A DNA stretch of 38,751 nucleotides from positions 1-38,751 of the forward strand of contig DATIZR010000047.1 in the NCBI GenBank assembly GCA_035516965.1. Reading direction: 5' to 3'. A program made the position numbers and the translations under genes. Source of the DNA: Nitrospirota bacterium (GTDB lineage Bacteria > Nitrospirota > UBA9217). The notes under the pieces were generated by a model. The model searched no databases. It worked only from the letters and a program-made list of their open reading frames with translations, and was not told the DNA's origin. Each line of letters begins with the position of its first letter. The stretch's first letter is position 1. This document shows positions 3,510 through 37,452 of the stretch, piece after piece.

Positions 3510-4823
3510 ATGAGAGTGCAAAGCTTCCTGGCGGTCGTCGCTTTCCTTATCTTGTCGTATGCGATGCCTTATCAGATCCTGCATGCAGCTGAGACAAAGA
3601 AGGCGACCAGCATCGACGAACTTGCAAAGATGTATGATTCAACCGGATGCAGAGGGTGCCATGAGGGGGTTTACAAGGAGTGGGAGCAGTCGATCCACTC
3701 GCGGTCCATATTCGGGACCGGGAGGACGGCCGCTACGATCAAAACGACTGTCTCCGTGGGGCTCATGGGCTGGCAGTATTCAGGCGTAAAAAAGCCTGAA
3801 GATGTACAGGTGAAACACCTGATGCTCTGCGCCAAATGCCACCTGCCGCAACTGGCGGATGCGACGGACGCTGTTGCAAAGGAGATCGTCCGGGAGGCCT
3901 TCATCTACTCGGACCCCAAAACGAGCGACGGGGACCGCGAAAAGGCGGCTCATAACCTGTCCAAGGTGAGCATCAACTGCCTCATCTGTCACCAGCGGAA
4001 CGCCATCACGCACAAGTGGGTGGACGGGTTCCCGCAGAAGAACGAGGTCTATGGGGCGAAGAGCGGCAGTCACGCCGACCCCGCCCATCCGGTAATGAAG
4101 GTCAGCCCGATCATGGATGAGTCGATCCTCTGCGGCCAGTGCCACGGCCTCGGACCGAACTTCGAGCTGGAGAACCCCTCTCAGTGTGCAACCCTGTACG
4201 GCAGCTACCTCTGGGCGTACCGCGCCGAGGGCGGCCAGGAGCGCTGCCAGGAATGCCACATGAAGAGGAGCAAGCTCGGCCACAACATGCAGGCCTACCG
4301 CGACCCGGGCATGGCCAAGGCCGCGGTGGATTTCAAGGTCGAAACCCTCGGCTACCAGTGGCGGGACGGCTCTCGAATGGTGCCCCAGGCCCTGGTCAGA
4401 GTTGAGATGACCAACCGCGCCGGACACGCCATCCCCGATGGCTGACCCACGCCCAACCGGCTGGTCCTGGAAGTGACCGCGAGAGACACACAAGGAAAAG
4501 AATTGTTCAGACAGTCAAAGATCTACATGCCCATTCCCCAGCAGCTCGGACGCGGCGACAAGATGGGCCGCGGACCCTATGAAAAGAGCGGCATCATCCG
4601 CGATACGGGCCTGCCGCCCAACCGCCCGGTCATCGAGAAGTTCGACATCCCCTTTCCGGCGGAGTTCACCAAAAAGGACGGCAAGGATGTGACCACGCTC
4701 CAGGATTATGACATGATCGTTGACGTGGAGCTCATGTACCTGCCCTTCGGGACCGTCGAGAGCGGAAAGTTCTCATGGTTCAAGGAGACAAAGAAGGTGA
4801 GCATCGAGAAAGGCGGCGTATAG
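3510..4823 (+). CDS. Pentaheme cytochrome c, predicted selenoprotein (ExtKL-like)
   Basis: An exported cytochrome with a signal peptide (about residues 1-26, ending HAA) and five CxxCH heme sites at C47, C107, C157, C208 and C246. An in-frame TGA at 4443-4445 (codon 312) interrupts a conserved-looking stretch GHAIPDG-x-PTPNRLVLEV. The same frame then runs 125 more codons to TAG at 4821-4823 with clear protein character (VTARDTQGKELF, PIPQQLGRGDKMG, ending SIEKGGV). Read as Sec312 the protein has 437 residues. The split matches the ExtK plus ExtL pair of Geobacter-type ext clusters, known as a multiheme (seleno)protein. The likely role is periplasmic or extracellular electron transfer; the acceptor is unknown. 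A promoter and a strong ribosome site precede it and a terminator follows. Alternatives are a nonsense mutation or a truncated 311-residue cytochrome. Confidence 0.78.
4460..4480 (+). promoter_or_regulatory. Candidate bacterial SECIS of the cytochrome gene
   Basis: Starting 14 bases after the TGA, G4460-C4461 pair with G4479-C4480, U4462 is bulged, GGUC (4463-4466) pairs with GACC (4475-4478), and the loop is CUGGAAGU. This is the layout of the E. coli fdhF SECIS: short stem, bulged U on the 5' side, upper stem, and a loop containing GG about 22 nt after the UGA. A competing fold of 4453-4470 exists. Folded by eye. Confidence 0.5.
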
Positions 4824-4966: not shown

Positions 4967-5311
4967 CTAATACCCCAGCGGTTCCCACTCCTTGAACCTG
5001 ATCACTTCCTCGCCCGGGTTCGGCAGCCCGGCGATCTTCCAGGCCTTGACCGGGTCCAGGAACCGCTCGGTCACGCAGTTCCTGGGCTGATGGACATTCT
5101 TGCACACAAAACGCACAATGGGAAAGAACCGGTGCTTCCGGTAGTACTCCCGAAGGAACCTCAGGATGTCGAGCTTGTCTTCGGCCAGCTCTCCCACACC
5201 TTCCTGGGCGGCGAGAACGCCTGCTACCTCTTCCGACCAGTCATTGAGGTCTACGAGGAACCCGTCGTCATCAACAATTATCCTGAGATCCTTATAAACG
5301 ATCACCGGCAT
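4967..5311 (-). CDS. DsrC/TusE-family protein lacking the C-terminal cysteines
   Basis: A 114-residue cytosolic protein of the DsrC/TusE/RspA sulfur-relay family, shown by VDDDGFLVDLNDWSEEVA (residues 12-30), LREYYRKHRFFPIVR (53-67), a KIAGLPNPG segment (92-100) and family length. In DsrC the C-terminal arm carries two redox Cys (KxCKIAGLP and GCV) and in TusE one. Here those positions are Trp91 and Glu, and the only Cys are C70 and C79. It therefore resembles the cysteine-less RspA type, thought to be regulatory, and probably cannot carry persulfide on its arm. The tail is also extended (RFKEWEPLGY). The ATG at 5311 has a GGGGAG ribosome site. It lies 108 bases downstream of the rhodanese gene on the same strand. 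Confidence 0.85.
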   Translation of the reverse strand: MPVIVYKDLRIIVDDDGFLVDLNDWSEEVAGVLAAQEGVGELAEDKLDILRFLREYYRKHRFFPIVRFVCKNVHQPRNCVTERFLDPVKAWKIAGLPNPGEEVIRFKEWEPLGY

Positions 5312-5419: not shown

Positions 5420-5833
5420 TCACTTTTTTTCGACCGGATACCCGGCGTCCACCCATGCGTTCCATCCGCCCTTGAGCGCGAAAACATTCTTATATCCCCG
5501 CTCCATGAGCTCGAGCACCACACGGGCACTCGTTCCTTCGTCGGGTCAGGAGCAGTAGACGATGAGCTTCTTCTCCCGGGGAACACCTTTGATCCATGAT
5601 GAAACATCATGGGGATCGACCCGGACCGCGCCTTTGATCTTCCGGTCGCTGCCGCTCCAGCTGGACCCGGTCCGCGCGTCCAGGATGAGGATATTCGGAT
5701 TTCCCAGGAGCGCCTTCACCTCCTCCTTGGCGATCCGGGGCGCGCTGTCGCTCGTCCAGCCGGCTGATGCGAAGAGCAGGCCCATCATGGCCATGATGAG
5801 CATGCCCGCGTATACCGCGGTTCTCCTTTTCAT
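5420..5833 (-). CDS. Exported rhodanese-like protein, predicted selenoprotein (ExtH-like)
   Basis: A periplasmic rhodanese-fold protein: signal peptide at residues 1-25 (MKRRTAVYAGMLIMAMMGLL then FASAG), LILDARTGSSW (48-59), GAVRVDPHDV, and the active loop VYC94-S-x96-PDEGTSAR. Codon 96 is TGA (5546-5548). The frame continues to ARVVLELMERGYKNV and ALKGGWNAWVDAGYPVEKK, the canonical C-terminal half of the domain, ending at 5420. Relatives commonly have Cys at this spot (YCxCPxE), so Sec96 in a C-S-U motif is the simplest reading and gives 137 residues. Rhodaneses transfer sulfane sulfur; a Sec would suit selenium, tellurium or thiol redox chemistry (inference). AAGGAGA precedes the ATG. The Geobacter ext cluster also pairs a rhodanese (ExtH) with the Sec cytochrome. 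The alternative is a pseudogene. Confidence 0.8.
5512..5532 (-). promoter_or_regulatory. Candidate bacterial SECIS of the rhodanese gene
   Basis: Beginning 14 bases after the TGA, CGAG pairs with CUCG, followed by U-G, G-U and two C-G pairs, closing a five-base loop CGUGU. The stem has eight pairs and the loop starts 22 nt after the UGA with a G in its first two bases, as in the bacterial SECIS consensus. Folded by eye. Confidence 0.5.
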
Positions 5834-5980
5834 AAACCTGTCTCCTTGTGCGGCGAGGTTGGGTGTCGGGCCCGCGGGATGGTATCCCGCAGGATCCGGT
5901 GCGGCGTGGCTCTTGATCGAGCCTACTCCAAACATTCGCAATTTGCAAGGCCCTCGGCGGCAGGTCATGGCTGCGCTCGC

Positions 5981-24197: not shown

Positions 24198-24830
24198 TTA
24201 TCTGGCCGCCCGGGACGCACCATGACCAAGCGGAAGAGGCCTGTTCTCCTTTGACGGAGAGTGCCGGCCCCTTCTCTCGTACCGCTCCATGCCGAGGAAC
24301 ATGGCCCCGGCAAGCGCGAAGAGTGCCACGACAAAGACCCAGTGGTTGATGCCGGTCAATCCCGGCAGCGTTACCGAGCCCATATCCGATATCTTGTAGA
24401 AGGGCTCGATCAGCGGGAAGACCGCCGAGAAGATCAGGGTCCCGGCTCCAATCCCGAACATCGTCGCAAGGGCATCGAGCCTGCCGGAAGCAAGGCCGGC
24501 CACGGCAGTGCCGGGACAGTATCCGCTTACGAGGTAACCGAGTCCGAAAAGCGCTCCCCCTGCCAGCTGGGGCCAGAAGTACGTGGGTATGATCCATATT
24601 CTGCTCATGTCAAGGATCTTCAAGTCTGCGAGCAGCACAAGACCGGTCGCTGCGACGAGGATCGCGGTGAACATGGCCTTCGGTACGCTGAAATCGGACA
24701 GATAGAAAACACCCGTTAGTTTGTGCGGGTTGCCCAGCCCTCCCCGTTCGAGAAAGAACCCGAAGAACGCCCCCAGAACGACGGCCATCACTAGATTGAC
24801 GTTGTCACTCAAGAGTAAAGGCGCGCTCAT
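24198..24830 (-). CDS. YeeE/YedE-family transporter subunit (second)
   Basis: A 210-residue integral membrane protein with about five helices and the family core LVSGYCPGTAVAGLASG, whose Cys is conserved in YeeE/YedE (TsuA-like) sulfur-compound transporters. An N-terminal segment ERGGLGNPHKLTGVFYLSD is also typical. YeeE/YedE proteins import thiosulfate or related sulfur species; some are linked to selenium metabolism. It overlaps the upstream paralogue's stop by four bases, as in two-gene PmpA/PmpB-type pairs. AGGAGGTT lies before the chosen ATG at 24830. Confidence 0.85.
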   Translation of the reverse strand: MSAPLLLSDNVNLVMAVVLGAFFGFFLERGGLGNPHKLTGVFYLSDFSVPKAMFTAILVAATGLVLLADLKILDMSRIWIIPTYFWPQLAGGALFGLGYLVSGYCPGTAVAGLASGRLDALATMFGIGAGTLIFSAVFPLIEPFYKISDMGSVTLPGLTGINHWVFVVALFALAGAMFLGMERYERRGRHSPSKENRPLPLGHGASRAAR

Positions 24831-25333
24831 GACCATAACCTCCTGAAGAGAGATGCGAACAGGAATCCGCTGGCAAACATGGCGATGACGAAGACCCAGC
24901 CGGACAGAGCAAATTGGGAGCCGCCGGTGAGCGCTACGCCGCTCGTGCATCCCCGCGCGAGCCTGCTGGCGAACCCGAGGAGCGCTCCTCCCCCGAATGC
25001 CGTCATCGCCCGCATCCCGACGGTCATGGTCGCGGCCCGGTCGAACCGGAGTTTGAAGCTTCTGCTCAAGGCAACGCCGAGGAACGCGCCGAGGAACACC
25101 CCGGCCACTTCAAGGACGGTCCAGTCCCTGAAAGGGGATGTTTCCAGGTACTTCTCGAGGTACGTCAGCGTCGCCGTGTAGCCGGGCAGCACCTCCCTCA
25201 TGGCCGTCCCGGCGCCAACCGTGAATGCCCGCGAAGCGCCCAGCCCCTGGCCCGCAATTACGAACGATGCCAGGAGGGCCAGGCCGATCCCGGCGCCTGC
25301 CAGATAAGGAGACCAGTAACCGCTCTTGTTCAT
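24827..25333 (-). CDS. YeeE/YedE-family transporter subunit (first)
   Basis: A 168-residue membrane protein (MNKSGYWSPYLAGAGIGLAL onwards) with four or five helices and the core SRLARGCTSGVALTGGSQ, whose Cys aligns with the conserved transport Cys of the family. It would pair with the overlapping downstream gene to make a full YeeE/YedE unit for thiosulfate or another reduced sulfur species. The ATG at 25333 has a GGGGAGGTGCAT ribosome site; a longer frame to 25495 has no signal or family match. The substrate is not determined. Confidence 0.85.
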   Translation of the reverse strand: MNKSGYWSPYLAGAGIGLALLASFVIAGQGLGASRAFTVGAGTAMREVLPGYTATLTYLEKYLETSPFRDWTVLEVAGVFLGAFLGVALSRSFKLRFDRAATMTVGMRAMTAFGGGALLGFASRLARGCTSGVALTGGSQFALSGWVFVIAMFASGFLFASLFRRLWS

Positions 25334-25787
25334 ATGCACCTCCCCTTTTTTTCGCCAGTGAAGATTTCGGCTCCGCTGGTCGATGGTTGCATTACCGCAT
25401 GCATGTGCGGTCTCAACTGAACATCCGGGGGAAAGAAAGGCTCTCGCAGCCATGGAGCGAACGCTGACTTCCCGTGACGACCGGCACTGTTTCATAGTTT
25501 CGAATTTTATTAACCTTAATTAATTATTGACCGGGGCACGTCAATTGTCAAGAGCCATGACGGTCCAGGGTGGCAATAGAACGTTGTTTGGCTTGACCAT
25601 GCAGGACGTCTAGGAAATATCTCCGGGCGTGCATCGATGGGGCCCGCGCCGGATATTGACAGGATGTATCGGAGGGCCACGATGTGTGCAGGCACGCGCT
25701 TACGCGTTACGACCATTTCATGCGGCAGGTGAGATCTGGGTGATGTGAAGACCTGGCCAGGAGCCCGAGGCCCGACGGCGCTGTCCG

Positions 25788-36149: not shown

Positions 36150-36482
36150 ATGGGAGATTATTACAAAGCCGAAGATTTAGATCGGTTCGGGGAAGTAGGA
36201 AAACACAACCCTGAGCTATTCAAAAAGTTTCTTGCGTGGTACACTGCTGCTCTAGAGCCTGGCATGCTCACAAAACGGGAAAAAGCATTAATCGGAGTTG
36301 CCGTTGCGCATGCGGTTCAGTGTCCCTACTGTATTGATGCCTATACCAAAGCCTGCATGGAGGAAGGCATGAGCCTCGAACATATCACGGAGGCGGTTCA
36401 TGTGGCAGCCGCGATCAGGGGCGGCGCTTCCCTTGTGCACACGATCCAGGCACATAACGTCGCGGACAAGCTCTCTTTGTGA
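36150..36482 (+). CDS. Arsenosugar biosynthesis-associated peroxidase-like protein
   Basis: A 110-residue AhpD/carboxymuconolactone-decarboxylase-fold protein with the redox motif C58-PY-C61 in HAVQCPYCIDAYTK and the following EAVHVAAAIRGGASLVHTI. It closely fits the small peroxidase-like family that accompanies ArsS (family TIGR04169, from memory). It sits directly before arsS, 13 bases apart on one transcript. The role in arsenosugar formation is not proven; it may handle redox or a thiol-bound intermediate. Confidence 0.88.
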   Translation: MGDYYKAEDLDRFGEVGKHNPELFKKFLAWYTAALEPGMLTKREKALIGVAVAHAVQCPYCIDAYTKACMEEGMSLEHITEAVHVAAAIRGGASLVHTIQAHNVADKLSL

Positions 36483-36495
36483 GGAATCGACCGTC

Positions 36496-37452
36496 ATGCA
36501 GGAATCAGCTTTTTCCAAAAAGGTGCTTTCGGTACATTCAGGGCCGCTCACGGCCAGGGAGATCCCGACCCTCCAGGTGAACGTAGGGTACCGTTGCAAC
36601 CTGTCGTGCAAGCATTGTCATGTAGAGGGTGGTCCTTCCCGGACAGAAATGATGGACGAGGAGACCGTGGATAGTGTCCTTGCTGTGCTCGCGAGATTAC
36701 CGATCGGTACCATCGACATTACCGGCGGCGCTCCTGAAATGAACCCTCACTTCAGATATTTGATTACCGAAGCACGAAAATTGAACAAACATGTTATAGC
36801 ACGCACGAACCTGGCCATCTTTTATGAAGAAGGTATGGAGGATATCCCCGAATTTTATCGGGAAAGGAGTGTGGAGCTCGTTGCCTCTCTGCCCTATTAT
36901 ATCGAAGACACTGTCGATCGCGTGCGGGGCGGCGGGATCTTCAAGAAATGCATTACATCGCTCCAGAACCTGAACTCTCTGGGATACGGCGAGCAGGGAG
37001 GCCTCGTCCTGAACCTGGTCTATAACCCGCCGGGCGCATTTCTTGCGCCCGACCAGAGGACCCTTGAAGCGGAATATAAGAGAGAACTGCAGGCCCGGTT
37101 TGGCATTTCTTTCAACAGACTCTACACTTTCACCAATATGCCCATCGGCAGGTTCAGGCAATTTCTCGCGCGCACCGGTAATCTTGATAAGTACATGGAC
37201 AAGCTTATCTGTTCGTTCAATCCAGCGACCCTCGACGGCATCATGTGCCGCCATCTGGTCAGTGTTGGATGGGACGGAATACTCTATGACTGCGACTTTA
37301 ACCAGGTACTCGATATAGCAGTGAGTACCGCGCGCACGAACATCCGGGACTTCGATCTAGCTGCTATTTCACAACGTACTATTAATGTAGGTGACCATTG
37401 CTTCGGGTGCACTGCAGGCCAGGGTTCAACTTGAATAGGTTCGACTGCGTAG
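36496..37452 (+). CDS. arsS: Arsenosugar radical SAM protein ArsS, predicted selenoprotein
   Basis: A radical SAM enzyme (CxxxCxxC at C34, C38, C41 in GYRCNLSCKHC) with a C-terminal DUF3641-type Cys-rich domain. It acts in arsenosugar synthesis, probably joining a ribosyl or adenosyl unit to methylated arsenic. The C-terminus reads HCFGCTAGQGST then TGA at 37432-37434, then five codons IGSTA and TAG at 37450-37452. Family members end HCFGCTAGxGSxC, with Cys or Sec at that position, so TGA is best read as Sec313, giving 318 residues. If it is a true stop, the protein is 312 residues and lacks this residue. The ATG at 36496 lies just past the peroxidase-like gene, with GAGGA before it. No arsM is in the window. 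Confidence 0.88.

Follow-up and report, generated by a model that had tools for sequence, protein, structure and literature searches.

The window analysed here, a stretch of 38,751 nucleotides, carries on its minus strand a rhodanese gene whose reading frame contains an in-frame TGA codon. The host is assigned to Nitrospirota on the grounds that Nitrospiria/Nitrospirae MAGs are its closest relatives with a name. The gene starts with an ATG at position 5833 and runs to position 5420, which is where the preliminary description had placed it, and a ribosome-binding site AAGGAG can be recognised upstream of the ATG (5842–5847, minus strand). The coding region (5423–5833, minus strand) consists of 137 codons and is followed by the true stop codon, also TGA (5420–5422, minus strand). 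By translation, the in-frame TGA (5546–5548, minus strand) is codon 96, to which alignment with homologues assigns selenocysteine (Sec), and it lies two residues past Cys94 (codon TGC, 5552–5554, minus strand), which occupies the canonical catalytic position of rhodaneses according to both the homologues and the structural model. Read through this codon, the protein has the sequence MKRRTAVYAGMLIMAMMGLLFASAGWTSDSAPRIAKEEVKALLGNPNILILDARTGSSWSGSDRKIKGAVRVDPHDVSSWIKGVPREKKLIVYCSUPDEGTSARVVLELMERGYKNVFALKGGWNAWVDAGYPVEKK. Directly downstream and on the same strand lies a DsrC/TusE-like gene (4967–5311, minus strand; PF04358 with E-value 3.4e-19, TIGR03342 with 66.6 bits), and a gene for an ExtKL-type multihaem cytochrome selenoprotein (3510–4823, plus strand; 576.8 bits against NF040886, where the cut-off is 250), with its own in-frame TGA at 4443–4445, is found 600 bp from the rhodanese gene on the opposite strand.

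The assignment to the rhodaneses follows from several lines of evidence. The protein has a single domain, PF00581, which covers residues 37–129 and thus runs across the TGA (E-value 4.3e-14). AlphaFold2, which was run on 56 window and locus proteins, predicts a structure with pLDDT of about 98 over residues 31–137, and the best matches of the predicted fold in the PDB are rhodaneses. In this model Cys94 comes immediately after the strand formed by residues 89–93, and residue 96 is part of the loop ahead of the helix 100–111, so that the catalytic residue stands where the strand gives way to the loop, and the predicted loop containing C94 and U96 is the rhodanese active loop. The N-terminal segment (5753–5833, minus strand), which has low confidence in the model, is a probable signal peptide composed of KRR, a hydrophobic stretch and ASA-G. 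The protein had been described as an exported rhodanese; the domain score and the predicted fold support the second part of this description, and export by way of the probable signal peptide is likely, as judged from the N-terminal sequence.

With the standard code the open reading frame ends at YCS, and the TGA could be an ordinary stop that leaves a truncated protein of 95 residues, a pseudogene or a sequencing error. This reading is opposed by the comparison with relatives. The TGA is present at the aligned position in 81 homologues from three phyla (51 from the window's phylum, 29 from a second phylum and one from Chloroflexi), and the complete C-terminal half of the domain follows it in every one of them. 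In a set of 396 genomes sampled from the window's phylum, 36 places score above the family cut-off of NF041203 and every one of them carries the TGA; in the second phylum there are 42 places above the cut-off, four of which are without TGA. Three of these four orthologues were read, and they have cysteine at the exact position of Sec (YCSC, YCAC); one same-family Cys orthologue was rescored against NF041203 and obtained 158.6 bits. Cys homologues thus have loops of the form YCSC or YCACPNE, in accord with the YCxCPxE that had been stated for relatives. In addition, dN/dS downstream of the TGA is less than 0.5 in all pairs where it could be computed, which indicates purifying selection on the segment that an ordinary stop would leave untranslated, and the synonymous sites around the hairpin described below are also constrained. 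We consider an ordinary stop very improbable.

The genome has the components required for insertion of selenocysteine, namely SelA, SelB, tRNA-Sec and SelD, and the SelD gene (G000:C86:4133-5059) itself contains an in-frame TGA. Loss of the C-terminal half in relatives and a genome without a selenocysteine system had been named beforehand as observations that would count against selenocysteine; the former is seen in none of the homologues and the latter does not apply to this genome. The frame would be open whichever residue was assigned to the TGA, and one could suppose that a changed code or a suppressor inserts a different residue, such as tryptophan or glycine. However, the same gene terminates at TGA, the orthologues have cysteine at this position, and the genome encodes tRNA-Sec and SelB, which makes such decoding extremely improbable. 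The distribution of SelB agrees with selenocysteine: of 41 genomes that have the TGA-containing rhodanese, 38 also have a SelB above the cut-off, compared to none of 20 genomes in which the nearest homologue is of the Cys type. The TGA-carrying genomes with no SelB above the cut-off are G032, G171 and G351, perhaps because their assemblies are incomplete. As a separate observation, the window's assembly contains two selA-selB pairs (L142 on G000:C71 and L143 on G000:C42) that are about 82% identical in DNA sequence. On C71, a contig of 4.9 kb, the pair follows a transposase-like gene and its SelB is probably cut by the contig end; this extra pair may represent a second system, a copy that has integrated, or contamination.

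Selenocysteine insertion in bacteria depends on a bSECIS hairpin, and the published model of this element requires a distance of 16–37 nt from the UGA to the loop (PMC13188914). In the rhodanese gene, folding and family comparison identify a hairpin at 5512–5532 (minus strand), with a stem of 8 bp in which 5532–5525 pair with 5519–5512 and a loop CGUGU at 5524–5520. The loop starts at nucleotide 22 past the TGA, that is, 21 nt separate the UGA from the loop, and the folding energy is −10.0 kcal/mol, so the hairpin satisfies the published model (PMC13188914). An 8-bp hairpin with its loop at +22 had been reported from the sequence and is real. Taken alone, the hairpin is modest evidence, with a fold z-score of −1.3 and a p-value of 0.027 relative to random synonymous codons, whereas its conservation over the family goes far beyond what chance would give. 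The hairpin energy in the family is −6.8, compared to −2.3 with random synonymous codons, and the three innermost stem pairs are formed in 81, 81 and 80 of the 81 sequences. The choice of synonymous codons is also strongly constrained: the third base of the loop codon is U in 47 of 51 sequences (local codon usage would predict 7.0), the serine codon is AGY in all 51 (16.8 expected), and the next codon, at +7, ends in C in 49 (16.9 expected), where the 51 sequences are related and the counts do not represent independent events.

The three same-family orthologues with cysteine have no bSECIS-like hairpin at the corresponding register, and the hairpin is present in 29 of the 30 Sec homologues compared alongside. 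Distant Cys rhodaneses with the YCACPNE loop are also prone to form hairpins in this region (−6.2 versus −2.1 for the null), and for this reason we do not use stem strength alone as proof of Sec. The discriminating features are instead the loop G[U/G], of which the GU form is found in only two of 19 distant Cys rhodaneses, the synonymous constraint, and the loss of the hairpin in the same-family Cys orthologues. An apparent covariation of third positions in the stem between C-G and T-A (CG 20, TA 22, CA 5, TG 1) was likewise set aside, being confounded by genome G+C content. The question of whether homologues keep both the TGA and a matching hairpin can be answered in the affirmative for nearly all Sec homologues, with the qualification that the stem is weakened in part of the group L116–L126 and that the three same-family orthologues have neither. 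The element is an unusually clean evolutionary case for a bSECIS, kept in the Sec orthologues and gone in the Cys ones of the same family. Taking the sequence evidence together, we hold with high confidence that residue 96 is read as selenocysteine and that the protein belongs to the NF041203 family of rhodanese selenoproteins. Standard annotation would truncate the gene, and the present analysis supports a full-length selenoprotein.

NF041203, named 'rhodanese_LYCAU' and defined as a rhodanese-related (seleno)protein, is a curated equivalog model with a cut-off of 115 bits, and the window protein scores 159 bits. The same family is listed as rhodanese form 3, with the motif CxU and one Sec, in a 2026 review (PMC13188914) and as COG0607 form 2, CxU, in a 2022 review (PMC9312934). 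The window gene is consequently a new member of an already catalogued selenoprotein family. It shares with the family the score above the cut-off, the C-x-U arrangement (C94-S-U96, with alternation of Sec and Cys among relatives) and the single domain, and differs from it in no essential way, its loop being CSU rather than CAU. A more distant likeness is to TsoB (NF045694), a rhodanese/DsbD fusion-like selenoprotein that also has a Sec-bearing rhodanese domain; the window protein is a weak match to it (26 bits) and does not reach its cut-off of 805 bits, and TsoB differs by its length of about 570 positions and its UxxxxU motif. Among other rhodanese genes encountered, L130 (5761 onward) and L131 (3333 onward) encode exported rhodaneses that are more distantly related and have their TGA four codons past the catalytic Cys (FYCRGAGUG and FYCRGTAUG), a Sec position unlike that of the window's family, and in L093, L095 and L103 the Sec rhodanese genes occur as adjacent tandem pairs.

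A part of the family departs from the one-Sec description given in the review. A second TGA replaces the codon of the catalytic-position cysteine, giving Y-U-x-U, in 19 of the 81 homologues: 12 from the window's phylum (L101, L111, L113, L114, L117, L122 and L124–L129) and seven from the second phylum (L161, L168, L171, L172 and L186–L188). On a tree of 56 proteins built for the window's phylum with the two loop columns (94 and 96) masked, the UxU state requires seven changes, at least four of which are forced by well-supported branches. A subgroup of UxU proteins found in the same taxonomic family as the window is among the nearest relatives of the window gene, which itself is CxU. Some UxU members score above the NF041203 cut-off and others below it. 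In the UxU genes the hairpin loop is located 21 nt past the second UGA and 27 nt past the first; both distances are inside the 16–37 nt of the model, and one hairpin could therefore serve both UGAs. We found no description of a UxU rhodanese in the literature searched, which took in few subscription journals. It is reasonably probable that the UxU relatives represent an undescribed diselenide rhodanese in which the catalytic Cys was repeatedly replaced by Sec, with two UGAs one codon apart and a single downstream SECIS. If true, these genes offer a natural test of one SECIS decoding two UGAs six bases apart, and they raise the question of why a cell makes a diselenide rhodanese.

The replacement of the catalytic Cys by Sec in these 19 homologues suggests that both loop residues may act as redox chalcogens. 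Both residue 94 and residue 96 vary between Cys and Sec among the homologues read. These homologues were retained on the loop motif, so it is partly by construction that no other residue is seen at either site, but this is not so for the alternation at the two sites, which fits a two-residue redox pair. In the reading that we favour, SelB, bound to the hairpin just past the codon, brings Sec-tRNA to UGA-96 and allows synthesis of the full-length, probably exported protein with the loop C94-S-U96. The redox mechanism that we propose for this protein rests on motif logic. Cys94, the usual rhodanese nucleophile, would accept sulfane sulfur from a polysulfide or persulfide; attack by Sec96 would then release sulfide and create a Cys94-S-Se-Sec96 bond, to be reduced by an electron or thiol donor. 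More generally, position 94 could react with sulfane sulfur or another oxidant, and the UxU forms would pass through a diselenide in place of the selenenylsulfide. We offer these details of the Cys94/Sec96 pair, and a function as a per/polysulfide or disulfide reductase more than as a plain sulfurtransferase, as a tentative proposal with somewhat less than an even chance of being correct.

The main rival to this mechanism, and one that is compatible with the selenoprotein reading, is a classical periplasmic sulfurtransferase similar to Sud or PspE, in which Sec96 tunes the loop or shields Cys94 from oxidation and no Se-S bond forms in the catalytic cycle. The rhodanese fold and the canonical catalytic position are what such an enzyme would have, and the structure of Sud (PDB 1qxn, deposited as sulfide dehydrogenase), also a small rhodanese, is among the PDB sequence matches (E-value 2e-4). 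Sud is a periplasmic polysulfide-sulfur transferase with one catalytic Cys and no selenocysteine. The alternation of Cys and Sec at both loop positions speaks against a plain sulfurtransferase, although the homologues were retained on this motif, and we regard the alternative as a serious possibility that falls well short of even. For the redox-pair mechanism, the cellular location of the relatives is also informative: many have signal peptides or lipoprotein-like N-termini, and others (for example, L119 and L123) begin at the domain and look cytoplasmic, which makes one fixed periplasmic partner unlikely.

From the position of a Sec rhodanese, taken to be periplasmic, next to a Sec cytochrome, the ExtKL-type protein, a role in the chemistry of selenium, tellurium or sulfur oxyanions had been proposed, and the rhodanese could be seen as a component of an Ext-type system for selenite/tellurite reduction. 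An ExtKL above the cut-off is present in 38 of 47 genomes searched, and in Geobacter, mutation of extI impairs the reduction of selenite and tellurite, and the ext cluster, which holds an ExtKL cytochrome, includes a different protein described as rhodanese-like, ExtH (PMC5877670). However, the distance between ExtKL and the rhodanese is about 7 kb or less in just three of 51 loci, and in the window they are encoded on different strands. An all-against-all comparison of neighbouring ORFs revealed no conserved operon; apart from the rhodanese, the only families common to the loci are generic signalling and ABC genes, and the conserved neighbourhood with ExtKL and a porin that would characterise a member of the Ext cluster (ExtHIJKLMNOPQS) was not found. 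ExtH is also much larger, at 49 kDa (PMC5877670), and sits in a porin-cytochrome operon of a kind that was not observed here. The proposal drawn from the adjacent cytochrome is thus not borne out, and participation of the rhodanese in an Ext system appears unlikely. The TGA of the ExtKL gene is common to most of its relatives, and the region around it has no unusual fold stability.

We considered and rejected functional links between the rhodanese and either the ABC exporter encoded upstream or the DsrC/TusE-like protein, as neither association is conserved; elsewhere, a homologue of the latter (61% identical) occurs near the rhodanese only in L118. The DsrC/TusE-like protein itself seemingly lacks the C-terminal Cys pair of DsrC. 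Elsewhere in the window, two overlapping genes encode YeeE/YedE-type sulfur (thiosulfate) transport proteins (24198–25495, minus strand; PF04143), and an arsenosugar radical SAM protein ArsS is encoded at 36400–37434 (plus strand; TIGR04167, 430.6 bits). The ArsS family often contains Sec, and the ArsS of the window reads through with Cys (FGCTAGQG).
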